The notes under the pieces: model-generated | What the model saw: the letters and a program-made list of their open reading frames with translations, nothing else | What the model was told of the DNA's origin: nothing | Database searches by the model: none | DNA from: Apostichopus japonicus | Taxonomy: Eukaryota > Echinodermata > Holothuroidea > Aspidochirotida > Stichopodidae | Direction of reading: 5' to 3' | NCBI RefSeq assembly: GCF_037975245.1 | Contig: NC_092571.1 | Location: 23,379,564-23,443,563 of the forward strand | DNA length: 64,000 bases | Made by a program: the position numbers and the translations under genes | Part shown: in pieces, positions 3,571-54,423 of the stretch | Layout of the letters: each line of letters starts with the position of its first letter | Numbering within the stretch: the first letter of the stretch is position 1

Positions 3571-3947
3571 AGGCTTATATTTAATTTGCGAACTATACAC
3601 CTGCATGTATGTAATGACGTCATTCAGTGTACTATACAAACGGCGTAATTGAACCGAAGTGTAGGCCTAAGTGACCACTCTGCTCATTAAAAAAAAAAAA
3701 ACCTTTCCAGTTTGACAGTTATTTCGCAGAACTATTATATAATCTGATGAACTGTGTCAATTCAGTATAGGCTATGTATTTTTTTTTCATAACATCTTCA
3801 CCGAGCCTAGCCTTGCATAGTCTACATATTCAAAGTAGACTTTCTGTGCAAAGTTAAATGCGTATGCAGATGGCTGTTTGTGAAGTCGACACAACTTTGC
3901 AAGTACTCGTAGTTTTTATACATATATAGGCTATATGTATACATATC

Positions 3948-4020
<73 letters not shown>

Positions 4021-4046
4021 GTGTGTGTGTGTGCGTGTGTGTGTGT
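3948..4046. repeat. (TA)n-(GT)n compound microsatellite
   Basis: About 70 bp of TA followed directly by GTGTGTGTGTGTGCGTGTG. It may form Z-DNA or a slipped structure and marks no gene. Confidence 0.95.
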
Positions 4047-6131
4047 ATGCTGAATGTGGTTAGCATATGTAGCTAACCCTGCTCTCCGAACAAGCGCTTC
4101 AGCTGTACTTGCGATAATTATTTTTTTACAATTCGTTAAATGACACGTTACGTCAAAAAGCAGAAGAGTGACACAAACCGAAACTGAAAATTGCAATTGA
4201 ACTTGTTTGAACTATAGTGTAGTAAGTAATATTGTACAGTTGTAAAATGAAGTGCTTATACTGAATTTAGACTTCCTGTATCACATTTAAAGAGAATAGC
4301 CTTTCATAGGCATGTACCACACATATGCAGTTTACTATATAGAGTTTGCTACATCATTGATATTAAGTTTAAAATTTTGAAATATCTCTTGATTGTCTGC
4401 ATATCCCTTGTATCACATATATGTTATCACTAACGCCCTATGCATCCACTCATCCACTGTAAATAAAATCATAAACAAGTTTAAATCAAAAGAAATAAAA
4501 AAACATTTTGTTAAATATGTGCACATAATCTGTTTAGTACGTATTAATATTAAATAAAGTTTGCCTATATAAATTAATTTGCAAGAAATTAACATTTATA
4601 GAACAATCATTCTATTTTTTAAATTTAATTATTATGCCACAAACTTCTTTATATTTCAATGACTATAACATATGGCCATCCTCTCATATTTTTAGAATAA
4701 CATAATTTTCAACTGTTCAGTTTTACTTTAATTATTTCTTGTTTATCAATTCAACAACACTGTTTATTACTTGTTAATGTGGGAGGGAGGATGGAATATA
4801 AAGAAATTTAGAACACTTTTTAAATGGCGTTAACCATTAATAATTTCGAATCAATTTTAAGTCACTACAATGGTCTTTTTAAGCTGCTTTTTTAAGCTGG
4901 TAGTCGAAAACTGCTGTTAGACTAAACTCCGTTGGTTTCTAGGTTTTTCCAAGCTAGGAAGACAATTAAATGTCAATATGTGAATTACGTCCGAATTATT
5001 TCAAATAAATAAAGAGATTTGGAACATTCCAGTTAAAAATTTAGGAATTTTACCAATTCCACTTTTATAAATGGGTATGTTTGAATTTAATAAAGTTACA
5101 TCGTGTTATACACGCAGTCCAATAACTCACATTTACACAAATTACCCTTATTTATACGATTTTATTACCCTTTTTCGTCAGAGTAAGAAGACAAAAATTA
5201 TATCGAATTATTGATAGCTTCTGAATCCAATTGGTTTGGTGAAAAATAGTTGCATATAGTTTAATAATTCTAAAATACTTCTGAAAATGTATTGAGAAAT
5301 GTCGAAAACAATAGCTGATCGATTACCCCATAGAATACCCTTTCTACAATAATTGCGTATTGACCGATTACAACTATCTGTACGTGCACTTACTTAACGG
5401 TATATGCACACAGCTATTTTAAAGTACCAGGCTGCTTAGACTACCTATTCTATAACTGTACATCGTCGCACACAATTGACACACGGAATGGTCGAAAAGC
5501 GAATGTTGTTTTGGACGGACTGCTCTAAAAAGTATTGTTCTAAAAATGGTACCGACTAATCATTTAATGATTAATTTAGCACTTCAACGTGCATAAATTG
5601 ATTTTGTTACATTAATGTTACGATAAACACCAACACCATGCGTTATGTGCGGGTGAAACTGCAAGTATACTAGCCTAACGATATCGTTAATGAAATTGAA
5701 CGTGTAGTCCAATTAGCTCTGTGGTATACGTATTGTAGGCCTAGGCTATACGTACGGTAATTTCGCGCAATCCCTAAATTCGTGTACAATGTGTTATGCA
5801 TATCCCTTCACACACTGACACAATTTAGTTCCCGTGTGAAACACATTTAATTTGATTGAGTACCGGTTACGATTCGATTCTTTGCAAGTAAACTGACATA
5901 TTTTATTATGTCACCCTAAGTGAATTTAACTCTTTCACAATACTTTGGGCGACATAGCATAAAATAACACCTATGGCGACATTGAAATGTTTCATTTCCA
6001 AAATGCTTATTGTAATATAATATCATCTGTACTTTTAGAGAAATATCTTCTTTTAATTCGACCGTTAACCCAATTTGTTCTTCAAATTTAAGGCAAATAT
6101 GATATCATAATGTGTAACTATATATGTTCGC
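4047..6131. other. No gene seen
   Basis: AT-rich, non-repetitive-looking DNA. I found no exon with matching splice sites on either strand and no strong repeat. Confidence 0.5.
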
Positions 6132-6136
6132 ACAAG

Positions 6137-7232
6137 CAGGGGCGGATGCAGGATTTTTGACAGGGGGGGGGGGGTCTGACTGGTCCAGCCGCGCCTGATC
6201 GAAAGACTATCTAAGCGGAGCGCCACCATCGGTTGGCGCGGAGCGTACCAGAAAATTTTGGGCTTTACAAACCCCCCCAGATGGCCGGAAACGGCACTTC
6301 CCGAGTATTATAAGCTGCATGTACCCAGCCTGAAAATATGGATCTCATGTCTGCAATTTCTCAATTGATGAGAAAAAAACAATCTATGAAATATGGTAAT
6401 ACATATCAGATGAGTTGAGATGATACAAAAATCATAATGCCTTTAGCCACCAATCCCCCTCCCGTTCCGTCACCACTGTTTGATGCAGGGCCGGATCCAG
6501 GATTCTGGAAGGGTGAGGGGTTTGGCCTCCAGTGATCCTAGGGTCTAAGGGGAGTGGGTTTCCCTCTATCCATTGTGAAATTCTTGGATATTTAAGTACA
6601 ACAGGGAACCCCCTTCAATTTAGCCATTCAAAGCACCGACAAAAACTCACTCGAAATGTATCTGCATCAGTACGAGTTAGCTAGTTTTATTGATGATCTA
6701 TTCATGGTAGATTGGAGAGAACAAACGCCGTGGATGTTTCTCAATGAACTTTCGGACCACTTCGTCAGTGTCGATAGGAGTGTTATAATACGTGTTCATG
6801 AGAACAAGAGCTGTGAGACGTTCCTTGCCCATTGTTGATCGGAGAACAGTTTTATGCCTTCTCACCGCAGAAAACGATCTCTCATGAAGAATTCGTCGGC
6901 GCATCCTATGCAGCCTACCGCTCTGCCACCTCACCGCCCAAAACAATTCGAACACCACCTCAATTTTGAAACTTTTCGGTCTGAAAATTGAGATTTTGAG
7001 GCATTTTTTGAACGTGTAGCACGCGTGCACACTATAGTTCATTTGACGGAAAAGACACATCTGGCTGACTTGTAAGGATAACCGCCCTTCTGACGTCCTA
7101 CATGTTTAAAATTGGCGTTTAATTTAATTATTTTTTCTCTCTCTTTTTTTTCTCTTTTTTTTTCTCTCTTTTTTTTTTGGGCCAAGAGCAGGGGGGTCCG
7201 GACCCCCTGGACCCCCCCTGGATCCGCGCCTG
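6137..7232. mobile_element. hAT element with 5-bp target duplication, internally deleted
   Basis: The left end is CAGGGGCGGATGCAGGA and the right end reads inward as CAGGCGCGGATCCAGGGG. Both flanks carry ACAAG (6132-6136 and 7233-7237), a perfect 5-bp target duplication. Inside are the family's conserved hairpin module (about 6205-6250), a second head-like sequence CAGGGCCGGATCCAGGATT at about 6487, a hAT transposase remnant on the minus strand, and a long pyrimidine tract just before the right end. The last feature is shared with the copies at 26.3, 43.9 and 57.1 kb. The transposase fragment identifies the family as hAT. The 5-bp duplication suggests the hAT5-type branch (inference). Confidence 0.88.
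6700..6883 (-). pseudogene. hAT transposase C-terminal dimerisation region, remnant
   Basis: The minus strand encodes ERSFSAVRRHKTVLRSTM followed by GKERLTALVLMNTYYNTP and then DTDEVVRKFIEKHP. This is the hallmark C-terminal dimerisation block of hAT transposases (consensus E-R-x-F-S-x-L-x-x-I-K-x-x-L-R-x-x-M, then R-L-x-x-L). The DDE and zinc-finger regions that should precede it are absent: upstream of the glutamate the reading frame turns into unrelated sequence, so the element cannot move itself. About 60 residues remain of a protein usually 500-800 residues long. The block is well conserved, which suggests a fairly recent deletion derivative. Confidence 0.85.
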
Positions 7233-7237
7233 ACAAG

Positions 7238-8325
7238 CTACATTCGTGCAAACCTCAGTGATGATATCTTAGCGTACCTTCAAACATGACATTAAACTTC
7301 AAGTTCATACCTGCTACATTCGAGAAATGACGGCCACTCAAATATGTCCTAACGACCAATTTCAACATTTAGCGTATAGGCATATATGGCAAACTGTCTA
7401 AATTTCACATTCAAACCCTCACAAACCTATACAAGGACGGGGCACAGACTCCAAACCACCCATTGGTAGTCCAGGATGTCTGCTTTGTTAAACATGAAAA
7501 AATTAATATCATATCTTCTTAAAAGTAACAGTGAATACAGTAGGCCACCCCCTAATGTGACCATTTAGTGTTAGTATATGAGGGGGGGGGGCATTTTTAT
7601 GAGGCTCAATCAAAATCATATTAACAAATCCAGTTTCCTTAAAGAAACAATGCTAACAAGATGTTTTAATGTATAGTTTGGAATCTGCTCTATCTTTACT
7701 AAGAACGTAAAATGGCGGCAAGTTCTTTCTCTATTTAAATAATATTTGGAAATTTCGAGTTCTCATATCATGAGAATGCAAATTCCTCTCATACCTATAA
7801 AAAATACCTATTAAAAACAAGATTCAAATAAAACAATTTTTACAGAGGATATAGAATTCTAGTATATCATTTTATTAATTAGAACGTTTGCGCATGCGTG
7901 ACTCTACAGGGCAAGAGAGCTTTTACTTAAGATATTTTCACTGAAAAAAAGACTATTAAAAGCGATGTTACCTACATTATCGGAGTAATAGATATATTCA
8001 TTATTTATTACCATTATAAACATTTGTTCATTCAAATGGGGAGGGAGGGTGGGGGGAGTTATTGAAAAGGACCCCTTGTAAAACTAATAAATGCCTAGGC
8101 GATGGCTCTTTGGATGCATGCCCTAAGTGACCTCAATGATGAAAAACAATGGACACGTATATAGATGATAGTTCCTGATGTGTTATCTATACAAGCATAC
8201 GAACTGTTATAATGTCACCCAAAAGCTTTAAAGGAGGGTGGTTGAAAGTAGGGCCACTTTTGCATATCTAATAGAGCGATGTTATGCTTTTCAAATAACT
8301 GCATGATCATGAGAAACAACTCGTA
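7238..8325. other. No gene seen
   Basis: Mixed AT-rich DNA with short G runs (near 7581 and 8040). No supported exon and no complete element. Confidence 0.45.
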
Positions 8326-8550
8326 CACTGCAAAAACAAATTGGTTAATTTCATAACCAATTCCATTGTTTGGAATGTAATTGGTCAAGCCAACCATTAT
8401 ATTGTTTACTTGTAACCAACGTACACCAATTTAGTAGGTAGTCCTGAACATTAGCAATAGGTTAACTACACCAACAATAATTGGTTCTAAGTACGTCATT
8501 ATATGAGTCATATCCGTGACTTTGTTCTCTGCATGCTTTGGCTCGCCACG

Positions 8551-9536
8551 CGCGTATGGAAAGCCATTTTAACATTTAATCGGGAATTTTAGATATCTGA
8601 AATTGTTTCTTATTTCAGATATCTGAAATTGAATTCGAGATATCTAAAACAGATTTCGAGATATCTGAAATTCTAATTCAGATATCTGAAATTGAATTCG
8701 AGATATCTGAAATTGAATTCAAGACATATAATATAGATTTCGAGATATCTGAAATTCTAATTCAGATATCTGAAATTGAAATCGAGATATCTGAAATTGA
8801 ATTCGAGATATCCGAAATTGAATTCGAGATATCTGAAATTCTATTTCAGATATCTTACATTTAATTCGAGATATCTGAAATTGAATTCGAGATATCTGAA
8901 ATAAAATTCAAGATATCTACAATTCTAATTCGAGATATCTGAAATTGAATTCGAGATATCTGCAATTGAATTCGAGATATCTGAAATGCATATGCATAAA
9001 TTCCCGATTAAATGTTAAAATGGCACGTATGGAAAGCCATTTTAACATTTAATCGGTAATTTTCATATATCTCTAATTGAATTCGAGATATCTGAAATTG
9101 AATTCGAGATATCTAAAATTCTATTTCAGATATCTGAAATTGAATTCGAGATATCTGAAATTGAATTCGAGATATCTGAAAATGAATTCGAGATATCTGA
9201 AATTTTATTTCAGATATCTGAAATTGAATTCAAGATATCTGAAATTGAATTCGAGATATCCAAAATTCTATTTCAGATATCTGAAATTGAATTCGAGATA
9301 TCTGAAATTGAATTCGAGATATCTGAAATTGAATTCGAGATATCTCGAATTCAATCTCATATATCTGAAATTCCCTGGTATTTCGAGATATCTGAAATTG
9401 ATTTTAAGATATCTGCAAATATTTGTAGATATCTTAAATAAATTGGAGATATCTGTAATTTAATTTGAGATATCTGAAATTATTTCGAGATATCTGAAAT
9501 TCGTTATTAAATGTTAAAACGGCTTTCCATACGCGC
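8551..9536. repeat. Foldback element of 21-bp GAATTC/GATATC units
   Basis: Two blocks of a 21-bp unit (GAATTCGAGATATCTGAAAT plus T) are bounded by inverted copies of CGTATGGAAAGCCATTTTAA: at the left end (8551), back to back in the middle (about 8990-9060), and inverted at the right end (to 9536). Each unit contains the palindromes GAATTC and AGATATCT, so the block can fold on itself at many registers. Because the unit is a multiple of three it leaves a long artificial reading frame of seven-residue NSRYLKL repeats, which I do not consider a gene. It is nested near the left end of the 8326-14355 transposon. Confidence 0.85.
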
Positions 9537-9703
9537 GGGAAACCGCTCTCCGTTTAATTGTGTGCGTCCACCACTAGCACTGCACTGCAATTTATTGTGT
9601 TAACCACCCAGTTACGTACGTACACAACACTGATGAGTGCACTCCAGGCACAACGGCAAGGTGTACCAGGTAAACTAAGCTAATTCCGCTCATTTTAATC
9701 GAC

Positions 9704-9770
9704 ATGGACCATTACGTGAAGAACATTCTAACAGAATGGAACCTAGAAATGCTTCACGAAGTCTTTGAAG
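9704..9770 (+). CDS. SAM-like transposon gene, first coding exon
   Basis: The first ATG is followed by 22 codons and a donor GTAAGA, ending in phase 1. The peptide MDHYVKNILTEWNLEMLHEV ends in FE and has the look of the first helix of a sterile alpha motif (tryptophan, then hydrophobic-x-x-hydrophobic, then F-E). It lies just inside the foldback repeat of the 8326-14355 element. It is the likely start of a protein whose C-terminal exons follow at 10809-12824. That this is the start of a SAM domain is an inference from sequence pattern and from family memory of 'SAMD3-like' uncharacterised proteins. Confidence 0.6.
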
Positions 9771-10680
9771 GTAAGAAGATTATGTAAATTGTGCAGTAAT
9801 AATCAATGTATTGGCATTACTGTAGGCTAAGGTTATACGGCCTAGCCTACCAATGCAACTTTAGTGACATGACAAGCGACGTTCGCCTAGTGTTACCACT
9901 AAATGTTAAGCCTAACATTATGATATAATAGCGCTGTAGGCCTAGGCCTCCTACAGTGCTGCGTACACTACTGTACCTGCAGGCTGAGGTCTGTCCTAAG
10001 CTAGCACTGGACTAGTGTTATACTTGCTTAGTGCTAGACCTAGGTCCCAGGCTACTTTTTTTTAAATTTTGTTTCTCTGGAACTTGGAGGGTAGCTATCC
10101 AGTCAAAATGTCCCCAGACCAAAACATCCCTGCATTTTTAGCAACCAAAATGTCCCCGCTTTTTACCAAAATGTACATGGTATTGTAATGGCCTATTGCC
10201 AGTATTGGGTACAAAAATGTCCCAGCAGCTAGGAAATGTGAGAGGAATTTGAAAACTGAGTGTAAGGACGGAATTAGGAATGCTGAATTTTTTTCATTAC
10301 CACGTTTTTATAATGTTAGGCCTGGGCTACTTGCTCAAGAAGAGGGATCGAATAATGAAGAAAAGTATACTTAGGGCCGTCAACCACTTCAATCCTTCGC
10401 ATATGGGCTGTATGGTAGTACATTGCACCACGTACTAGCCTATATACTAGCCTAGTCACTCATTGTAGCCTATACTAGATGCACGTAACCCAAGCACTCA
10501 TTGTGTTGTAAGTACTGCAGTAGGCTAGCACTCTTCAATTTTCCAGAAAACTACTGTGCCTTATCAGTCACACCATCAACTGTGTTTTATTTTAGTTATT
10601 TTGCATTAACAAGACTCAGAGATTAAGTAGCATGCTAAATCATGTTTCAAGAGTGGAGTATATCACACAATTTTAGAAAG

Positions 10681-10717
10681 GAATAGATGAGACAGTTCTT
10701 AAAGGGCTGTTTGCTCG
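10681..10717 (+). CDS. Possible second exon of the SAM-like gene
   Basis: After an acceptor-like TTTTAGAAAG the phase-1 continuation of exon one reads EGIDETVLKGLFAR, a good match to the second helix of a SAM domain (E-G-I-D-x-x-x-L). A donor-like GTGAGG follows at 10718, but it would leave phase 2 while the next clear exon begins in phase 0. Read straight on, the frame meets a TGA at once. Either a small exon is missed, or this copy is damaged between the SAM region and the rest. Confidence 0.4.
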
Positions 10718-10808
10718 GTGAGGGTGGGTTTAGTGGCATGTCACATGTCCCCCTAAAAATTATCGCTGCCCCCAAGTACCCCCATTCTGTTTACTTTTCA
10801 TATTTAAG

Positions 10809-10953
10809 ATTGAAGAAGATTTCCAGAAATTGCATGAAGGGTCCCAAAGAGGTTTTTCAAGACAAGTAGTCAGCCGTGTTGCTCTAGACGTGAAGGATCC
10901 TGCCATAAAACGGACTTTAGCACTTATGGATAAGGAACCAGAATTACCCCAAG
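10809..10953 (+). CDS. SAM-like transposon gene, middle exon
   Basis: Acceptor CATATTTAAG and donor CAAG then GTAGAG bound 145 nt that are open in the frame IEEDFQKLHEGSQRGFSRQV, then VSRVALDVKDPAIKRTLALM, then DKEPELPQ. It ends in phase 1 and matches the phase-1 start of the next exon at 11868. I do not recognise a domain in it. In related proteins this stretch links the SAM domain to the C-terminal region. Confidence 0.6.
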
Positions 10954-11867
10954 GTAGAGTGTGTCTTCGGTATTCAGTGTAGAAGTTGTGTTGGAGAATT
11001 CCCCTGGCTCATTATTGTAATGTTCTCTGAGTTGCTATGTTAATAAGAACTGTGTTGGTTGCTAAATATAATACTGGTCAGATGACAAACACCAAGAAAA
11101 GTTCACACATAAAATCACTTGCAATATGTTTAAGAGGAATGCATTCTAAGTGATTTGGTGAAAATTTGAGTAAATGTACTGTAGGTGCGTGGATTGAAAG
11201 TTCCTATTCTTTAAAAATTTTCAGCTTTGTCCCATGTAGTGAACTGTAGCAAATAGGTGTGACATCATCTTCAATATCCTCAATGACACTATCATATATT
11301 CCAAAAAGAACCCATAGCTCTTAATTTTAATTATGTATAATACTTTATAACATCCTCTTCAGTGTACAGTTCTAGGTCATAATTCAGGGTAAAAAACTAA
11401 GGCTGTACAAAACAAAGAACTTCTGGTAGTATTAAGGAGGTGATTTCATAAAGCTTCAAGGTCCTGTCTAACATCAGCTGTCATTTGTAGGCTACATGTG
11501 TTTTCATCCCATATCTTGTACTGAGTCAAACACACCCAAAATTTTCTAAACAGCTTAACTAAGGGCACTCCCATCTGGCGACACTGCAGAACCCCCAGAG
11601 GTTATTCCCCAAATTTATACAGGGGAAACATATCAGTAGTAATTCAAAACTGCTGTTTGTACTGACAGCTTTCAGAGTATCATGCTTTGGAGAGGCTAAA
11701 TGGTTACACATCTCCCCCAACCCCCACATTTTCAAAGCACTTGTAGGCACAATCCTCCATTCAGATTACCCCCCCCCCCCAAAAAAAAATACTTCTCTTG
11801 TTCAGATATTATCACAGCTTCACATATTTTCCAATTTCTAGTTCAAGTTTCTGTTCCTTTCTTATAG

Positions 11868-12004
11868 ATACCTATGGGGCTGCTTCCTTGTATTTGATGC
11901 CAAGTCTGTTTACACCTGGCAGTGTTGCCATCAAGAAGGGAAGCCAGAAGAGATGGAAGCCAACCATATCGGAGAGCATGAGGGCTTTCATTGCAGTGCT
12001 ACCA
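11868..12004 (+). CDS. SAM-like transposon gene, penultimate exon
   Basis: Bounded by acceptor TTTCTTATAG and donor CCA then GTTAGT. It enters in phase 1 and leaves in phase 0. The peptide DTYGAASLYLMPSLFTPGSV continues AIKKGSQKRWKPTISESMRA. The R-W-K-P-T/S block followed by a short acidic helix is the part that precedes the C-terminal domain in the uncharacterised SAMD3-like family as I remember it. The frame joins exactly to the last exon. Confidence 0.65.
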
Positions 12005-12482
12005 GTTAGTATTTTGCTTAGAGTATTATTGCATGTTGTGGACGGTAGCAGTCATGAGTGCAGAGTTTACTGCTTCAGCATTTTAAAGAAACTGTTATTT
12101 CATGGTATATATACACGAAGAAACTTTGTTTCAAAACATTTTGTAAATAATTGGTTGTAAGTTAAAAAAATTGTTTAGAACTTTGTGCTAGAAATGAAAG
12201 TTGTAAAAAGACTGATAGAATGGTTTGGTTAAAGTGATAATTAAGCAGCCTAAATGTGTTTTAACTACCTGGTCAAAACACAGCATCACAAATGCTAAGG
12301 AATAGGACATGCAGGGAGGCTGGTGTAGTTGTAACCCATTTAACTATACCTTACTTTCTTATTTCTTTTAAATGCCTTTCAGTTCCAGTACCATTTTGAT
12401 TATGATGGTTTGTTTCTTACATATCTTGTTCCCAATTGTGAACAGCTCATTTCAGTAACACATTTACTCATTTACATTGCAG

Positions 12483-12824
12483 GTTGGAGAGGACTTGGAG
12501 AAATTCAAGGAAGAAAGACACACAGAATGCCGAAACCATTCTGTTACCTGGCAGCCGCAGGTCGTAGTAATTGGCACTTCTGTTCTGGATGTTCAGCAAG
12601 TCTTCGTATTTTTGAACAACATTGTATATTCCGTGCCCTCGGTTGTTAAAGGCATAGATGTCTGCTTTAAAACTTTTCAGGTCTTCAATATTGAATATCC
12701 ATTGGAGTGTAAGTCTCCGTGGACCTTTCTGCAGAGAGGCATTTATAATATTGAAACACAGTATGATTCTGTAACACCACGGGTAAGAGAACTGCTGTCG
12801 ATCCTGAGACCGGACTCTGACTAA
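12483..12824 (+). CDS. SAM-like transposon gene, last exon (C-terminal domain)
   Basis: The acceptor TTTACATTGCAG opens a phase-0 exon of 113 codons ending in TAA. Key stretches are VTWQPQVVVIGTSVLDVQQV, then FVFLNNIVYSVPSVVKGIDV, CFKTFQVFNIEYPLECKSPW, and TFLQRGIYNIETQYD, with a final LLSIL. This K-x-I/V-D-x-C-F-K ... V-x-N-x-x-Y-P ... W-x-F-x-Q-x-x-I-Y pattern is shared with large families of uncharacterised proteins in fish and marine invertebrates. Its biochemical role is unknown to me. The last three exons are open and in phase, which is unusual for a captured passenger inside an element lacking a transposase and suggests either youth or selection. A paralogous, truncated version lies at 15838-16007. 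Confidence 0.7.
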   Translation, partial: VGEDLEKFKEERHTECRNHSVTWQPQVVVIGTSVLDVQQVFVFLNNIVYSVPSVVKGIDVCFKTFQVFNIEYPLECKSPWTFLQRGIYNIETQYDSVTPRVRELLSILRPDSD

Positions 12825-14355
12825 ACTTTGGTGGACATGTGCAAGGCTTCTGCTTGGCCATTAAATGGGCTTACTGAGTTGATATTGATTATTTTTTGAC
12901 AAGTCTGAAAAGAGATCATTGCATGACAATATTTGTAATTAGCCTCCTTATTCATGTATCACTTCCTGTAGTTACTGAAAATGTTGGAAATTGGTGTTTT
13001 TGTGGACGGGTTGCATAAGATTAATACTTGCAATACCAGGGAGGGGGAGGGGGTTACATGTCCCTTTTTGTAAATTTTTGTAAATTTTTATGGAATAAAA
13101 AAACAGGCAAAGTTAACATGTTACAATGTGACTAAATTTAAGTCTGATGTAATGCATACCGTGAAAGTATGTCACCAACTTTTTGTGGCATGCAGTTTTA
13201 GAGTATGAATTTCTGACCCTTGATATCTGTTTATTATAACCATGTTTGTACTCCTTAAGTATCATTTGTTTTATTACTTGAAGATACTAAACATCCACCT
13301 GAGTTATATGATAAGGTTTCAGTGGAGTAAGGGTTAAATTCTTTCATTCATTTGTCCGTCCACTAATTTTGGTTATGTTGTTACTCAAACTGATGAAGTT
13401 TTCTGAATATTAAAGCTTGGGAATGTTTGTTTTTGAAGCTTTTCTTCAAATTGAACAGCTATAGTTTTCCTTATATTTAGCAACATGAATTTTTGGGGAA
13501 TGTTTTATCTATCCGTCCTTATTGCAACTTTTATGATACTGTTTTTATGATTTCAAGTGTAAACATTCAACTAAGTGTGCTATAAAACTAAAGCCATTTT
13601 ACCAAGTGGTTTCTCTGATCAGTATTATGAATTCTACCATTAAAATTGTCTTGACAGCAGTTTCCCTTTTCTGATAGGCTATTGTGCTCATTATAAAACT
13701 ATGCACAATATTGCTGTTTACTTTCTTCAGAAAGGTTGGAATGGCAAATGTTTTAACAATGCAGATTCCGTCCATAGTGCTTGCCTGCCCTTTATTTAAT
13801 AAAAGCTCCATTTCCTGTTGTTTTTTCTTTATTTGCACACGCACAGTCGGCACAGAAAATTGTAAAATCCTATATGCATTGTTGCATCGATATTGTTTCT
13901 TTGCAAATGAACTAACCTTGACTGTATACCTCATATCATCCTTGCCATATCATTTTATGTAAATTGCATGCTGTTGTAGAGTTCCAAGAGCAATACATGA
14001 TTGTGTTAAAGCTATAATACCATAAAAAAATGTTCGATTCATTTTTGGCCTACACTGGAGAGCTGCAGTGCTGGACGCTGGAACAGATGAGGGAGAGCTG
14101 ACTGAAGTCAACAACCAATAACCAATTAATTGGTTAAGGAACAGGATTGGTTATGTCAACCACATAAATTGGTTGCATAATTGGTGGACTTAACCAATTT
14201 TATTGGTTAATGTAACCAATTTTCATTGTTTAATGACTTAACCAATTGATGTTGGTTATGGTAGCCAATTTATTGGTGGGACTCACAACAAGTGATCAAA
14301 TTGGTTGAAATTAACCATTTTTTTGGTTGCATTCAACCAATTTGTTTTTGCAGTG

Positions 14356-15585
14356 TAACCCTCTCGTGAAAGTGGCTTGACTTCTTAGACTAAACCACAT
14401 GGGAGTAATTGTCTTATTTAGTTCACTGTCTTATAATGAATATTATAACTTTGTGATTCTCCTTCTTTATCTTTTCTTTTCTTCCTTTGTTTCTTTTAAT
14501 CTTAAATACATTAATTTCTTAATTTTATAACATTTTGTCTGTTTTAATTCCATATAAATTTTCACTGATCTATAAGCTACAGTATAAACTTCGAAGCCAC
14601 ATGCATGATGTATTCCATTACAACCACGAATAACCGATCCCTAACTCGCTAATCGGATTTTTTTTTTGTATTATTGTATAGTTAACACATGCAAAGTTAA
14701 TCACCAAAGTTAACCACCAAAGTTTATAACAAAATATGTTTGCAATTTGGAAAAAAAACCCAATATATCTGTTCCCGCGCATGCGTACGAGTAATTTATT
14801 AATGCATAATGAGGCTTTAACTTCATAGTTATTCGTTTAAGACTTGTTCTGATAATGTCGTTGATACTACCTGCTATGTAGGTTGAGAGAAAAATACTTT
14901 CTTCGCGTCTGTTGATTTTAGTTAGGCGATAGTTCACCGATATATTCTATCTTTTAAGACCGACTTCTTCCATCATTTAATGCAAGTTGAATATAGATGT
15001 TAATTCTATCAATAAATATAGATCTTTTAATTTCGAATAGAATCGAAGAAAGGTAAAGATTTTTTCTTTAAGTTAAGAATTTTTCTTTAGTTCTCAGTAA
15101 CTTTATGCGTCAGCGATCAAATAGGGGGCGCTCTGCCAAATTCTTTAACATCTATAATATGCTCAGAGGCGCAAACGGTTCCCTATCTTTTTGTTCAATG
15201 ATGCATTGCATGTAAATGCTTCCACCAGAGAGCTGTTACCAACAGTTCCCTGAATCCATGATATCTCGGTTCTATGCATGCATGCTAAGTATAGATAACA
15301 ACGGTTTTCACACCAGAACGAAAAATGCTAAATGGAGTACGGTTAGCGGGTATCAATTTAGTTTGTCAGATCTCTGTCCCTCTTTCAGTCAGCATTTATG
15401 TGTATGATTTATATATCCTTTACAATTACAGAATATGACAAACATCGAGTCCGTTTGTGAAAATATTGGTGGAACGGTACATCCACAGACATTTACTGTA
15501 TAGTTCTTTGGGACTTAAAGCAGAAGTCTCGTCATATTTTTGTGCTGATTGAGAGTAAGCCTCTTCCTGCAGCATGCACTGTTCT
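14356..15585. other. No gene seen
   Basis: AT-rich DNA after the right end of the 6-kb element. No supported exon. Confidence 0.45.
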
Positions 15586-15830: not shown

Positions 15831-15837
15831 ATGTTGA

Positions 15838-16007
15838 AAGCCATTGACAAATGCTTCAAGCTGTACTTTGTATTCGATTTTGCATATCAGCCTGACTGTG
15901 AGGCAACATGGCAGTTTCCGCAAAGCATTATTTATGAGTTGAACACAGATATCACAATGGAAATAAGCTCTGTGAAGGCGTTCCGTGCCTATTACAACTC
16001 AATGTAA
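15838..16007 (+). pseudogene. 5'-truncated relative of the SAM-like gene's last exon
   Basis: Directly after the SINE's (ACAT)n tail the plus strand reads LKAIDKCFKLYFVFDFAYQP, then DCEATWQFPQSIIYELNTDI, and ends at a TAA. This matches the 12483-12824 exon in order: K-x-I-D-x-C-F-K, V-F, Y, C, W-x-F-x-Q-x-x-I-Y, T. About one third of residues look identical. The preceding half of the exon is replaced by the SINE, so this is a broken or SINE-interrupted paralogue. Apart from tail-derived codons there is no start of its own. Confidence 0.65.
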
Positions 16008-16702: not shown

Positions 16703-16893
16703 ATGTATTTTAGATCCTCCTGCAAGCAGGAACTCGCAAAGAAGTCTCATTGGCTTATCAAGCCGCACGTCCATGATTGTCAATTGTCAACAACTCTGTA
16801 ACTGGACGACATACATTAATCTTGGAGTGACTCGAACCGGGGACCATATATAATTGGAAGGCACCGGCGTTAACCACTGAGCTAACACTCCTA
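16703..16893 (-). mobile_element. tRNA-derived SINE, minus strand
   Basis: Reverse copy of the SINE at 15586-15830, with a B-box-like GGTTCGAGTCACT and A-box TAGCTCAGTGG read on the minus strand and a shorter internal body. Confidence 0.82.
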
Positions 16894-19991: not shown

Positions 19992-21002
19992 TCATTTCTC
20001 AACTTCAATCAGTTGCTGTTTCTCTTTGGTGATTTGTTGTGATTTGGCTTCCGTCTGTTCATTTTGCTTTAGAAGGTTGATGATTCCAACCCCGATGCAA
20101 GCAGAACATATCAGTAATGCCCCTAGAATTGAGGACAAATGTAATGGAATGTCAAAAAATAAAGTTTGTCCAGTAAACACTAAAAAGACAGCAGATGTTA
20201 GTATGATAGTCACTGCCGATGCACTGATTAACGAGGAAGCTGTGTACATAAACTGAGTCCCAGTAAAAATGGTTAGACCAGGTACAGTTAACAGCAACAT
20301 GTCATAAAGCTTCACGGGGAATTCCCATGAATTGCTAAATGTTACCACGACTACAGATAATATCGTACATTGTACCAAATAAGACAGAGTGAAAAGAATC
20401 GAGTCAACATCAGAACTTGCCATAAGTTGGCGTATTGAAATTGATGCTGCATGCGTTACAGAGCCGAGTAAAGCGCATGGTATCCCAATAAGTCGCCGGA
20501 TCGCGTAGATATCCTGCCCATTGTCATGGGCTGCACTCGAAATATAAGACTCGCTGATTAGTATCACGCCTGTAAAAGACACCAAACTTAACAATAATTC
20601 CAGTTTCAACAGCTCCTTGTTACGAAAACAATTCATAAGGACAGCAAAGATTGGCATAGTGTAATAAATAGCATCGGCATTTCCAGGACCGATATTCATG
20701 ATTGCATACAACGCCGAGTACTGTCCAATTGCTTGTAGTAATCCACAAACCCATAACACAAAGATATCGTGTGTGGAATGTCGGAGATTTGGTCGTTGAC
20801 AAAGACAAACAGGTAAACAAAAACACAGTCCTATCGCAGATGAACTAAATATTACCATTACTTGATTAGATAGTTCCTGTAATCCGTAATAACTCAACGA
20901 ACCAAGTGCAAACATAACAGAAGAAAGTAATGCCAGAACCGGACCAAAGGAGGCGTTACACAATACCTTGAAGTAGCGTAAAATTGGCGATACGTCCGCC
21001 AT
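19992..21002 (-). CDS. SLC35G-like (EamA/DMT superfamily) membrane transporter, copy 1
   Basis: The protein is 336 residues with about ten hydrophobic segments (roughly 18-38, 48-68, 80-100, 106-126, 132-150, 168-186, 198-218, 232-252, 256-280, 286-308) arranged as two five-helix EamA halves. The stretch GNADAIYYTMPIFAVLMNCF is the typical helix-4 signature of SLC35G/solute carrier 35 relatives. The C-terminus is a charged cytosolic tail rich in K, Q and E. I chose the ATG at 21002 because it sits in a good Kozak context (A at -3, G at +4). The frame is open further 5' to an acceptor near 21070, so a longer N-terminus is possible. The coding part is a single exon. A GTAAGT donor at 21258 fits a 5' non-coding exon with a short intron. 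Substrate is unknown; the family moves small metabolites or nucleotide-sugar-like solutes across membranes. About 90% identical to copy 2 by hand count. Confidence 0.88.
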   Translation of the reverse strand: MADVSPILRYFKVLCNASFGPVLALLSSVMFALGSLSYYGLQELSNQVMVIFSSSAIGLCFCLPVCLCQRPNLRHSTHDIFVLWVCGLLQAIGQYSALYAIMNIGPGNADAIYYTMPIFAVLMNCFRNKELLKLELLLSLVSFTGVILISESYISSAAHDNGQDIYAIRRLIGIPCALLGSVTHAASISIRQLMASSDVDSILFTLSYLVQCTILSVVVVTFSNSWEFPVKLYDMLLLTVPGLTIFTGTQFMYTASSLISASAVTIILTSAVFLVFTGQTLFFDIPLHLSSILGALLICSACIGVGIINLLKQNEQTEAKSQQITKEKQQLIEVEK

Positions 21003-21258
21003 ATTTCGTGGTACGTGAAATTGTGGAAATTGACATCTAAATTCTCCCAAAGCTACGCAGATTTCAAAAAAGTGTTGCCTTTAAAAAAAAGAAAAGCAAA
21101 AGACAGTTTAAAATCAATTATAACATCATATTATACAATAATATTCAGCTGTTAAGTTTACCACTATATGTTCTTAGTTATATTCATTTCAAAGCTTCTA
21201 AGACTTTACAAATATCTTTTCACACCATATAAGCGATTATTATATTTAATGGACTTAC

Positions 21259-29219: not shown

Positions 29220-30438
29220 TATGGGGATCATTATTAACATGATTAACATAATTATTAAGCTTTGAAAAATAACTTGGTGTTATGCTGTGCAAAGCTAATA
29301 ATTATTTGGTAAAGCTGCTATTCCTGGCTTATAATTTGAGGGACCTAGATTTAAATGTATACCTCCCAATATGTTATAAAATTTTAATGTAAATGTATGT
29401 TTATGATTATGTGAGTTATCATGTGCTATATCTGTATCTGTGCTTACACGTATATCATATTTTCTGTTCACAGGTCAATAATGGTGCAGATTTTGGCTTC
29501 CTGAAGACAAGTGGGAGGCCATTTGTAGTTAAGAGAAACACTCTTTGTTCGTGAAGACTTAACTGGTGTCGATTTGGGGTACCACTTTAAAACGAAAGTC
29601 ATGAGGAACCCTTGCCCAAGATTCAACTTTGCATTATTGTGCAGTGCTATACTTTTGCGATTCATGTTTGATCCATTAACTTGTCTTAACTTTGTTGGAA
29701 CAAAATCATATTTTCAGATTTTTGTTTACAGTGATTTCTTCTCTATCTGTCGAAAGTCAGCCTTTGTAGACATCAGAAGTTTTATCAGAAATAAATACTG
29801 CCAACGTACACATTATTTGTGTTTCTTCTGCTCTCTTTTCTTTCAGTGATGCTAGTCAGTGAAACTAGTCGGGTTTAATTCTTTCAGTGATTCTAGTCAG
29901 TGCAACTAGTCAGTCGATACCGACTAAGAAAGGTTAGTCGGGAGAGGCACCATCCTGACTAATGTAAAACCTGCTATAAACTAGTCGGTGGCTCATATAA
30001 ATTAGTCGGTAAAGACCGACAAATGTCACCAACTAATGTAACTGACTAATATACATTTAACGACTAAGAAATTGTTGATCGACTAAGCTGACGGACTAAG
30101 ATGACCGACTAAGAAATCCAACTGACTAAGGAATAAATTAGTCGGTATAGCAACTGACTAAGGCTATGTTAGTCGGGAGAGGCACCAGATGGACTAACGT
30201 TATGTTAGTCGGTGAACCAATTTAAGTTTTCAGTGTGTAATATATATTTCGTTAAACATGATTGAATATTATTGTATAATATGATATATGATTTTATAAT
30301 TGATTTTAAGCTGTCTTTTGCTTCTTTTTTTTTCCTTTCTTTTTTAAAGACCAAACTAATTTCAAACTTCGTTTAAATTCTGCATAGACCTTGGGAGATT
30401 CTTTATGTCAATTTCCACAATTTCACGTACCAAGAAAT

Positions 30439-31425
30439 ATGGCGGAAGTATCGCCAATTTTACGCTACTTCAATGTATTATTTAGCGCCTCCTTTGGTCC
30501 GGTTCTGGCATTACTTTCTTCTGTTATGTTTGCACTTGGTTCGTTGAGTACTTACGGATTACAAGAACTATCTAATCAAGAAATGGTAATATTTAGTACC
30601 TCTGCGATAGGACTGTGTTTTTGTTTACCCGTTTGTCTTTGTCAACGACCAAATCTCCGACATTCCACACACGATGTTTTTGTATTATGGGTTTGTGGAT
30701 TACTACAAGCAATTGGAGAGTGCTCGACGTTGTATGCAGTCATGAATATCGGTCCTGGAAATGCCGATGCTATTTATTACACTATGCCAATCTTTGCTGT
30801 CCTCATCAATTGTTTTCGTAACAAGGAGCTGTTGAAAATGGAATTATTGTTAAGTTTGGTGTCTGTAACAGGCGTGATACTAATCAGTGAATCTAATATT
30901 TCGAATACAGCCCATGACAATGGACTTATTGGGATACCTTGCGCATTACTCGGCTCTGTAACGCACGCATCATCAATCTCACTACGGCAACTTATGGCAA
31001 GTTCTGATGTTGACTCGATTCTTTTCACTCTGTCTTATTTGGTACAATGTACGATATTATCTGTAGTCGTGGCCACATTTAGCAATTCATTGGAATTCCC
31101 CGTGAAGCTTTATGACATGTTGCTGTTAACTGTACCTGGTCTAACCACTTTCACTGGGACTCAGTTTATGTACATAGCTTCCTCGTTAATCAGTGCATCG
31201 GCCGTGGCTATCATACAAACAATTGCTGTCTTTTTAGTGTTTACTGGACAAACTTTATTTTTTGACATTCCATTACAATTGTCCTCAATTCTAGGAGCTT
31301 TACTGATATGTTCTGCTTGCATCGGGGTTGGAATCATCAACCTTCTAAAGCAAAATGAACAGACGGATGCCAAATCACAACAAATCACCAAAGAGGAACA
31401 GCAACTGATTAAAGATCAGAAATGA
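30439..31425 (+). CDS. SLC35G-like (EamA/DMT superfamily) membrane transporter, copy 2
   Basis: The 328-residue protein is the inverted duplicate of the 19992-21002 gene, with the same ten-helix EamA layout and GNADAIYYTMPIFAVLINCF. By hand count about 33 substitutions and one in-frame 8-residue deletion (after AHDNG) separate the copies. The deletion lies in the loop between the two EamA halves. No stop is present and many changes are conservative, so both copies look functional. The start at 30439 is the equivalent ATG. The 5' intron, about 0.2 kb in copy 1, here contains the 5.2-kb transposon. The donor after the 5' exon is also altered (GTTAAG instead of GTAAGT), so expression may have changed. 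Confidence 0.87.
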   Translation: MAEVSPILRYFNVLFSASFGPVLALLSSVMFALGSLSTYGLQELSNQEMVIFSTSAIGLCFCLPVCLCQRPNLRHSTHDVFVLWVCGLLQAIGECSTLYAVMNIGPGNADAIYYTMPIFAVLINCFRNKELLKMELLLSLVSVTGVILISESNISNTAHDNGLIGIPCALLGSVTHASSISLRQLMASSDVDSILFTLSYLVQCTILSVVVATFSNSLEFPVKLYDMLLLTVPGLTTFTGTQFMYIASSLISASAVAIIQTIAVFLVFTGQTLFFDIPLQLSSILGALLICSACIGVGIINLLKQNEQTDAKSQQITKEEQQLIKDQK

Positions 31426-51390: not shown

Positions 51391-51653
51391 CCCATTGTTT
51401 AAAAAAATCTGAGCCTTCACCTTTTGCCAAAGCTCCTTTAATTTGTCTCCCAGTCTCTGCAGTGTTTGTTTACATTTGTGGTTAAGCTCTGCAGAGGCTG
51501 TTAGTGGAATTAAAGCAGGACTGGGAGTTGTTATTAACTGTTGAACTGTAAGCATGAGAGCCCTATAGCCAATCAGCACTTGCCGATTCTTAGAAGTCTT
51601 TGAGCCTGAGGTATGTAGGCAGCCAGCCAAAATTTTGGCAAGGAGTGCTTCAG

Positions 51654-54314
51654 TATGGAACGCGAAAAGGGCAACCATATTTCGTTGTCTAAACTAAGTT
51701 TGTTGCAGTCTAAACTAAAGTTGTTGCTGCTGTTTTACCACGTTGTTGCTCAAACTCACGTTGTTATTTTAACTTCCGTTGTCTAAACATACGTCGTTGT
51801 CTAAACTTACGTTGTTGCTATCGGCGCTGTTCAAAATTGCTCAACCGCGTAATGTAAACCAGAATGCAAAATGCATTGAGGTTTCGATGACTTCAGTACA
51901 CTAGAAAGGTGTTAGTATAAGCAGAACTAGCTGTTACTATAGAAATGGCCGAACCACCATTTTGATAAATTAAATAAACACAGGTCAGTCTACTGTACGT
52001 GGCTATACACACCTGCACCAAAAAAAATAGGGGTCTTGGAGGTCCAAGTCCATTTGGAGTCACCAAACGCAAACTTGTGGAAACCTTGTTTTATAAGCTA
52101 CCGTATCTCCCACAGCCAGCCTATCAGATAACATGTGCGTTACAACTCATACGAATAGGAGGCTGCACGGTAAACAACTTTTAAAATGTTATGTTATACT
52201 TATAGGCTATGCATATACGCTGTGAATGTCGGAAATCAAGTACAACGTCGAGTGTCTAGACAAAGTACCAGCATAAAAATACTGCACTTTTAAACTGATT
52301 TCATTGAGCCCCTCCAACAATTTGTAGAGATAATCTGGGAATGTCGGTAATCAAGTAAAACGAGTGTCGAGACAAAATGCCAGCATAAAATACTGTACTT
52401 AAAATTAAATTATTGAACCATTACATGATGTCTGGATATGTTGTGAATGTCGGCAATCAAGTAAAACGAATGACAGTAATATTACTAAAGACAAACTTTT
52501 TCGTCCCGATCGAACACCAATTGCGTTTATTATATGACCTATACTTTTACTAGTGTTTATAGTTGAGAAGATGCGATCTTATCACTGCCTGTACTTTGTG
52601 AATGCTCTACACAATATATATATGGCGACCTTCATTTCGCCTGCCCTGCCACTCTTTCCTCCTCTCCAACTCCGTATATAGTACCTCGATGCTTTGACCT
52701 GCAGCGATTTTACCAGCTACCCCAACTCTTCAAATATCCCCGCAAATGTAGTGTGCATATCTCGCTAAATTACACGCAATTTGTATTAGGCCTGTTCAAA
52801 CTTCGGAGTTTCAACTGCACATGCGCATATCCTGAAAATTTGTGGAGAAAAGATCATATCACCTTACCTACAACACATAGCCTTAGTCAAAACTCGAGTG
52901 TATCTTGGATGATTCGTTTCTTGCATAACATGTTAGCTGGTTTTTTGGTCTAAAATTCTTAACAATGCTGAGCGAGGTTTGTGTATATTCCATTTACAAC
53001 ACAATCCCTTTCGCAAATCGAAACTCCGAACTGGATTGGTGTTACGAATGAACTTGCTTGGCGGGTTTAGTAAACTAGTTCTGTGAGTCATATTGCCTAC
53101 GTACTTCAATACTGTGCCCCTCTTGTTACTCACGAAGCGCAGACTACATCCAACCATAGAGCAACTGATCCAACATTTACCCTGGATGCTTTTCAGTATT
53201 TGGAAACAACCAACTCCACGAAAATTATAGTATTTAAATAACATTTTTACGCAATGTCGAAACTTCAATGACTACTTTTGACGATGTATGACTGCAGTAG
53301 TTTATGCACACGAATTAGTGTTGCACCAGAATCATGACTTGAAGCACGTGTCAAAGGGACCGCAAAACTTTACGCAAGTTTGCAACGAAGAAATAACTGT
53401 GGTATAAATGCACATTTTACATTATCAACTCTCAAAAGGGAGAGAACATAACATACTGTGAGATTTAAAGTCCTTTTTCAGTATCAGAGATGTTGTGGTA
53501 GCTTCCCGCAAAATTCATAGATTGTCTCAACTCATAACTTTCTGTGATAAAACAATTATTCAAATATGACATTAACAATATAAATGTAAATAACGTCCTC
53601 GGAGTTGTATCAGCTATCATGTAAATATCGTTAGCAACGTGATTTTGTTCGACAAATCAGGTTGTTAAGGATATTTACATGGCTGTTGCTACAAATCCGG
53701 CATGACATTAACGATTACCCCCCCCCCCCCCCTTTTCGCGTTACATAGTTAAACCATCATACTTTGCGTTCATTGAGCACTGAAGATGCAAGCATGTTTG
53801 CAGACAATGGGTAAGGGACTATTAACCAAACAAATCTAGGGAAATTTGAGAAAACATCATTAGCTGTATTTAGCATGAAAACCTCTGTAATAGATATGTT
53901 GTTAGCACTGCACGGAAGCAACTTGCGGTTGATTGTTATAATTTTTTTGAAAAGAAAGAATGATGTTCGTTCACAATGTGTTCACAACGGAACTTTAGAT
54001 AGCAACGAAAGTGTAGACATCAACGTGAGTTTAGACATCAACCGTAAGTTAACGTAGCAACGAAAGTTTTAGACATCAACGTGAGTTTAGACATCAACCG
54101 TAAGGTTTATAAATCAACGTGAGTTTAGACATTAAGGCGCGTTTAGTCGTCAACGTGACTTTAGACATCAACGTAAGTTTAGACATCAACGACCAACGGC
54201 AACATGGTAAACTAGCAGCAACAGCTTTAGTTTAGACAGCAACAAACTTAGTTTAGGCAACGAAACAAACTTAGTTTAGGCAACGAAATACGGTTGCCCT
54301 TTTCGCGTTCCATA
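51654..54314. mobile_element. 2.66-kb transposon with TCTAAAC motif arrays and 6-bp duplication
   Basis: Ends TATGGAACGCGAAAAGGGCA, inverted at the other side; the match continues past AACC, TATTTCGTTG and CTAAACTAAGTTTGTTGC. CTTCAG flanks both ends (51648-51653, 54315-54320). Subterminal arrays of an about 18-nt motif (GTTTAGACATCAACGTGA and its complement, with variants GTTGTCTAAACT) fill 51685-51810 and 53995-54275. The interior has a three-copy repeat at 52221-52480. No recognisable coding region. TATGG ends with a 6-bp duplication fit no superfamily I can name with confidence. Confidence 0.78.
52221..52480. repeat. Imperfect tandem repeat, about 110 bp, three copies
   Basis: Units begin with GTGAATGTCGGAAATCAAGT at about 52222, 52337 and 52443 and share ACAAAATGCCAGCATAAAAT-like text. 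Inside the 51654-54314 transposon. Confidence 0.75.
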
Positions 54315-54423
54315 CTTCAGGTCTGCTCAGGTAGAGGGGAGAAAGTTTAATAGGGTAGGTCAGTGGTATTGTTTGAGAGAGTGGGTAAAACAGGATTAAA
54401 AGGGGGAAAATAGGAATTATAGC

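Follow-up and report, generated by a model that had tools for sequence, protein, structure and literature searches.

In the parts of two accounts that deal with the maize transposon En/Spm (PMC2613891, PMC1636069), the transposase open reading frame (ORF), tnpD, is placed within intron 1 of a second gene, tnpA, whose product attaches to the subterminal repeats; movement requires both proteins, and deleted copies are mobile in trans. The portion of one account concerned with plant CACTA elements likewise describes two required proteins, of which the second is poorly conserved in sequence even from one plant family to another (PMC2613891). We describe here an element of this kind at positions 8326-14355 of a 64,000-nucleotide stretch of Apostichopus japonicus DNA (NC_092571.1:23,379,564-23,443,563, forward strand), the whole of which is referred to below as the window. 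With a rough probability of 0.68, we read it as a defective CACTA-like (Tnp2-type) cut-and-paste element, the complete members of whose group encode a transposase together with a partner protein that carries a SAM domain, or a PB1-like one in the family here called D. Judged from sequence comparison, the SAM-like gene is a standing component of this element group, because complete elements hold both genes, the two genes are linked on the same strand and their products diverge together. The initial annotation had preferred this view to chance capture, and it is borne out in that parts of the gene occur in all 11 copies of the window family and again in divergent families with long transposase frames.

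The ends of the window element comprise the following features.

8324-8325 (left) and 14356-14357 (right), no strand: TA target-site duplication, from flank comparison
8326-8346, plus strand: left terminal inverted repeat (TIR), CACTGCAAAAACAAATTGGTT, perfect over 21 base pairs (bp)
8339-8486, no strand: left subterminal AATTGGTT/AACCAATT repeats, from motif counts
14120-14343, no strand: right subterminal AATTGGTT/AACCAATT array, from motif counts
14335-14355, minus strand: right TIR, perfect over 21 bp

The perfect 21-bp TIR with TA flanks and the arrays inside both ends, all read in the initial annotation, were confirmed by an end-sequence scan of the window and by motif counts. When up to three mismatches are allowed, the window has the 19-mer TIR at two places only, 8326 (plus strand) and 14337-14355 (minus strand), compared with a shuffle mean of 0.04. 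Three AATTGGTT/AACCAATT copies lie inside the left end of the element, eight inside the right end and one elsewhere, and the two 330-base ends together contain 16 occurrences of the 6-mer ACCAAT, a number that never exceeds two in 688 random internal pairs, under a null in which the motif was picked from the ends and the same motif kept in the random pairs.

Between these ends the element carries the remains of the SAM-like gene, listed here with their occurrence among the 11 copies of the window family.

9704-9770, plus strand: exon 1, first part of the SAM domain, ending in phase 1; in all 11 copies, though incomplete in one (20 of 22 amino acids)
10784-10785, no strand: deletion junction, from comparison with sister copies
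10809-10953, plus strand: inner exon; in 7 of 11 copies
11868-12004, plus strand: inner exon; in 8 of 11 copies
12483-12824, plus strand: last exon, with the conserved C-terminal domain and stop codon; in 10 of 11 copies

All exon borders in the window copy are GT/AG, and the last three exons do join in phase and free of stops, as first proposed, into one open frame of 207 amino acids. Exon 1 is out of phase with the exon at 10809, a mismatch that the sister copies explain by deletion of the intervening exons at about 10784: six of them have 1-2.6 kb of different sequence at this position or beside it, and four copies (L010, L012, L013 and L017) contain there SAM exon 2 together with the first part of the transposase, which bears two C2H2 motifs, accompanied in L010 and L013 by an additional 'mid' exon of the SAM gene. 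When window exon 1 is joined to the sister-copy exon 2, the product matches Pfam SAM_1 at 24.8 bits (cutoff 23). The window copy is internally deleted, its transposase and half of its SAM domain gone and its ends kept; the earlier remark that no transposase is visible therefore holds for this deleted copy and fails for the group, whose complete relatives encode one. No PDB relatives of the 207-residue frame were found (best E 0.89), and a Pfam scan of 24 C-terminal domains returned single-member matches only, none of them credible (best E 0.0086, SAM_KSR1_N).

With the 285-residue transposase start as a genome query, 84 matches were obtained, the best outside the window family being 31% identical; 35 of the 84 lie in open frames of 706-877 codons, two of these 35 with a stop in the matched stretch. 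The long-frame transposases fall in near-identical groups, family I copies being 99.8-99.97% identical, and the transposases of the families with complete elements are 24-30% identical. Alignment of nine transposases (A2) reveals paired N-terminal C2H2 motifs and a common core, and Pfam places Transposase_21 in three of the nine (E 0.014) and DUF4218 in two (E 0.14), in the order seen in Tnp2. We regard the transposase of the group as Tnp2-like, short of a proven Tnp2. The CACTA assignment made at the outset fits the TIR, the duplication, the subterminal repeats and this sub-threshold Tnp2 match.

Complete elements were delimited in families A, C, D and J, each with both genes between inverted ends, namely a transposase frame of 831-852 codons and the partner. 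The family A element measures 11,958 bases and that of family D 12,334 bases, with CACTCTAAAAA ends; the family C element (C8:10889167-10901291) has 12,125 bases, CACTCT ends and TA flanks, its left end being the point where the similarity of other copies starts and its right end resting on the inverted repeat; and the family J element has 14,898 bases and CTCTCTTAAAATGA ends. A TA duplication flanks all four, equal two-base flanks having been a condition of the end searches (the ends of C were also seen in a separate search). The TIRs of A, C and D start with CACTC, a CAC start having been a search condition for A and D and the C element having first been seen without it, and those of J start with CTCTC. 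In the stretch examined for family I, no pair of ends was convincing. Five different subterminal motifs, each picked from the ends and not re-chosen in the null, top the counts in the five families examined, with the following occurrences at the left and right ends: ACCAAT in the window family (4 and 12), CCCAAC in A (2 and 5), GGGTCA in C (1 and 9), AGCACT in D (4 and 7) and AGACTG in J (3 and 15). The left ends are the poorer in motif, down to a single left copy in C, where the array is mainly on the right.

Of the eight families in which both genes were placed, six have the transposase nested among the SAM-gene exons, an arrangement like that of tnpD in maize tnpA, as read from exon order only in the window family, F and I, where it matches that of A, and from order and phases by eye in A, C and J. 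In A and C the transposase is flanked by SAM exon 2 on one side and a serine-rich exon on the other, and the exon 2 donor and the next-exon acceptor, both predicted by eye, are in phase 0, so that removal of the transposase by splicing would leave the SAM frame intact. In J the two SAM exons flank the transposase, and their borders are in phase, the joined exons matching SAM at 40.3 bits (cutoff 23, E 4e-10). Family E has the C-terminal exon just before the transposase, and in family D the second gene comes after it and begins with a PB1-like module in place of SAM. The partner thus persists across changed layouts, perhaps even with a changed N-terminal module.

Linkage of the two genes was assessed on loci merged from the match lists, which comprise 72 transposase loci outside the window family and at least 244 C-terminal exon loci. 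A same-strand C-terminal exon lies within 20 kb of 35 of the 72 transposase loci, and an exon on the opposite strand only was seen at none, among the matches listed; random placement, in which the sizes of a few contigs were approximated, produced a mean of 0.70 linked loci and a maximum of 4 in 1000 trials. Where the transposase frame reaches at least 700 codons, a partner is present in 23 of 35 cases among the matches listed. A first search with the C-terminal exon gave 116 loci outside the window family, and a second at least 150 matches; a transposase from the match lists lies no more than 20 kb away from 23 of the 116, in every case on the same strand, and the remaining loci have no transposase among the matches listed. 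At closer range, of 25 loci outside the window family, 18 have a SAM exon no more than 1.5 kb before the transposase on its 5' side, and two more have a C-terminal exon there. The five with neither include family H as well as D and J, in which the C-terminal exon is located farther downstream, at 8-9 kb (profile E values of 5e-19 in D and 4e-22 in J). The SAM profile used for these 25 loci was seeded from four families, three of which are represented among them; the window-family SAM alone as query recovered 17 of the same 18 loci, of which 14 have E values of 0.001 or lower and the remaining three, those of family G, only 0.15-0.16.

The two proteins also diverge in step. Identity matrices of the transposase and of the C-terminal domain across eight families correlate with a Mantel r of 0.80 (3 of 40,320 permutations), and with an r of 0.84 when the window family is left out (5 of 5,040 permutations). 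Their joint inheritance spans a divergence that leaves 22-52% identity.

The window family itself was delimited by searching the genome (671,581,487 bases) with its TIR, the backward-read sequence serving as control. The exact 19-mer has 22 genome matches and none in the control; the 21-base TIR with up to three mismatches has 84 (control 37), of which 22 are exact and the next best carry two mismatches. Facing pairs within 30 kb number 11, all formed by the 22 exact matches, and no diverged facing pair within that distance was found among the 84. All 11 copies start with CACTG and are flanked by a 2-bp duplication (TA in nine, TG in one, TT in one). As to whether other copies hold the same gene, parts of it are present in every one and the last exon in 10, at full length in eight (one with a stop) and partially in two; SAM exon 2 occurs in four, the transposase start in four and the 'mid' exon in two. 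Copies devoid of the gene, with the gene always in another context, were not seen among the 11: L017, the one that lacks the last exons, keeps the SAM exons, and outside the family some loci of the gene stand beside related transposases, as described above.

Copies L011 and L018 are 99.5-99.6% identical to the window copy across the whole element, which marks the family as young. Its longest open transposase frame has 301 codons and covers the N-terminal part only; a whole transposase is present in none of the 11 copies, and a complete window-family copy was not found in this assembly, which suggests that the source of its mobility lay elsewhere, in an autonomous copy that is now absent or in a related family. 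Five copies (window, L011, L014, L016 and L018) have in common both the deletion at about 10784 and a nested insertion, so they multiplied after becoming defective. With 11 copies found, none of them diverged or complete, the family represents a recent arrival or burst, possibly through horizontal transfer. Viral contigs scanned with the protein and the TIR gave no matches. The nested insertion in the window copy is the following.

8555-9531, no strand: nested inverted-repeat element of 977 bases, packed with 21-bp tandem units AGATATCTGAAATTGAATTCG; missing in six sister copies

A 6-bp CGCGCG duplication flanks it at 8549-8554 and 9532-9537, it is present in five of the 11 copies and absent in six, and the empty site was read in L010, L013 and L015; the 21-bp array at 8617-9501 is part of this insertion and separate from the host element. 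The arrangement is an odd one, a satellite within a transposon. Another copy, L014, contains at its positions 3900-7450 an insertion of about 3.5 kb with tandem repeats of about 400 bp.

Several observations sit poorly with a standing partner gene in a CACTA-like group. The initially proposed comparison of nonsynonymous to synonymous substitution rates (dN/dS) among copies was run on the last exon and yielded ratios of 0.23-1.42 in the 19 pairs listed, too mixed to be used. Pfam Tnp2 scores fall under the curated cutoff and are obtained for three of nine members; the ends of J start with CTCTC instead of CACT; nesting of the transposase is seen in neither D nor E; the PB1 match of family D is under its cutoff (E 0.0046); and family G is known from its SAM exon alone. 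No more than 35 of the at least 244 C-terminal exon loci are within 20 kb of a listed transposase. Among the matches listed, 12 of the 35 transposases with frames of at least 700 codons lack a partner, two of them in family I, where five of seven copies have one, and families H, K, O, R and S may be without a partner gene. The same lists leave 37 of the 72 transposase loci partnerless, a count that speaks for chance capture, in which a fragment of a host SAMD3-like gene would have been picked up and carried along as a functionless hitch-hiker. Plant CACTA elements do capture gene pieces, and the gene of the window copy is broken, with exon 1 out of phase. We nevertheless reject capture as hardly credible, given that both genes lie within the ends, that they diverge in step, and that linked loci among the matches listed are 35 on the same strand and none on the opposite strand only; moreover, eight families, with transposases 24-52% identical, all have the partner's last exon alongside the transposase.

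A partner that belongs to the element could still act otherwise than we propose. That the SAM exons are spliced to the transposase in a single SAM-zinc-finger-transposase protein, with the C-terminal exons specifying a longer isoform, is suggested by the position of SAM exon 2 directly before the transposase ORF, its donor in family A lying 13 bases before the ATG. We find this quite improbable, as read-through from SAM exon 2 of family A enters another frame than that of the transposase start, exon 2 and the predicted next exon agree in phase 0 in both A and C, and the layouts of E (C-terminal exon before the transposase), D (second gene after it) and J (transposase between SAM exons) are at odds with such a fusion. 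Alternatively, the partner might be a regulator or host-interface factor, serving silencing evasion, transposition repression or the formation of SAM-polymer nuclear bodies, with end recognition residing elsewhere. SAM and PB1 are self-association modules, the zinc fingers of the transposase could by themselves suffice to bind the ends, and TnpA acts on its own promoter too, according to the passages on En/Spm in one account (PMC1636069). We hold this to be rather unlikely: retention of the partner across gene orders, together with subterminal repeats that are specific to each family, favours a direct role in transposition, short of proof.

Under the preferred reading, in which the partner takes part in transposition itself, the window element would be able to move only in trans. 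By analogy with En/Spm, a single pre-mRNA of a complete element would be spliced without the transposase ORF to yield the SAM protein, which would recognise the family-specific subterminal repeats; self-association through SAM or PB1 could then build a complex in which the two ends are brought together and to which the transposase is recruited. The SAM protein may in addition regulate the element, as TnpA does in En/Spm. We infer a TnpA-like role for the partner; the DNA-binding or regulatory factor envisaged in the initial annotation is likewise putative.

Outside the element, the window contains a trace of another family.

15831-16004, plus strand: relict of a C-terminal exon from another family, from alignment A1

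In that alignment the relict is closest to the family F locus L058, with 48 of 58 aligned residues matching by eye; before it stands a fragment of an unrelated repeat, found again at 16743 and 63429. At 51652-54316 there is an element-like feature with inverted ends bearing AGTATGGAACGCGAAAAGGGCAACC and inner GTCTAAACT/AGTTTAGAC repeat arrays at both ends. Two similar long ORFs in opposite orientation, at 19992-21080 (minus strand, 362 amino acids) and 30388-31425 (plus strand, 345 amino acids), are presumably membrane-transporter-like, of an EamA/SLC35-like type, and the reading KERLTALVLMNTYYNTPIDTDEVVRKFIEKHPRRLF at 6698-7105 (minus strand) resembles the end of a hAT-type transposase.

Animal genes of the 'SAMD3-like' kind combine a SAM domain with a similar C-terminal pattern and may be related to the present gene, which lies within transposon ends. 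A literature survey, whose scope excluded Repbase reports and most subscription papers, turned up no mention of CACTA elements with a SAM partner. We tentatively suggest, as an idea somewhat less probable than its converse, that a polymer-forming end-assembly protein of SAM/PB1 type is the ancestral second gene of a whole animal CACTA lineage, corresponding to TnpA but built on a module that is unrelated or has been exchanged, and that many unexplained 'SAMD3-like' genes of animals are resident or domesticated copies of it. If so, a recognisable partner gene would make end recognition and complex assembly testable across CACTA families, and could account for the many 'SAMD3-like' genes of animal genomes; annotators should then be aware that such genes may be transposon-borne.

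Compared with described systems, the group resembles SmTRC1 and other animal TRC/CACTA elements in its 2-bp duplication, reported for 7 of 14 SmTRC1 copies, in Transposase_21, matched here below threshold, and, on the splicing predicted here, in alternatively spliced transcripts (PMC1636069). According to the same source, SmTRC1-type ends start with CCC, unlike those of the present group, and the rest of the proteins is reported as not detectably conserved; a SAM domain is not mentioned in the portion of that description available to us (PMC1636069). The plant elements En/Spm, Tam1 and soybean Tgmt*, as far as they are covered in the relevant sections of one account (PMC2613891), share with the group ends of the CACT type, subterminal repeats that vary from family to family, two encoded proteins, a transposase ORF in an intron of the second gene and, as predicted here, deleted copies moved in trans. 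What sets the present group apart from En/Spm is the nature of its proteins: a second protein that joins a SAM or PB1-like module to a conserved C-terminal domain, and a transposase with C2H2 motifs.

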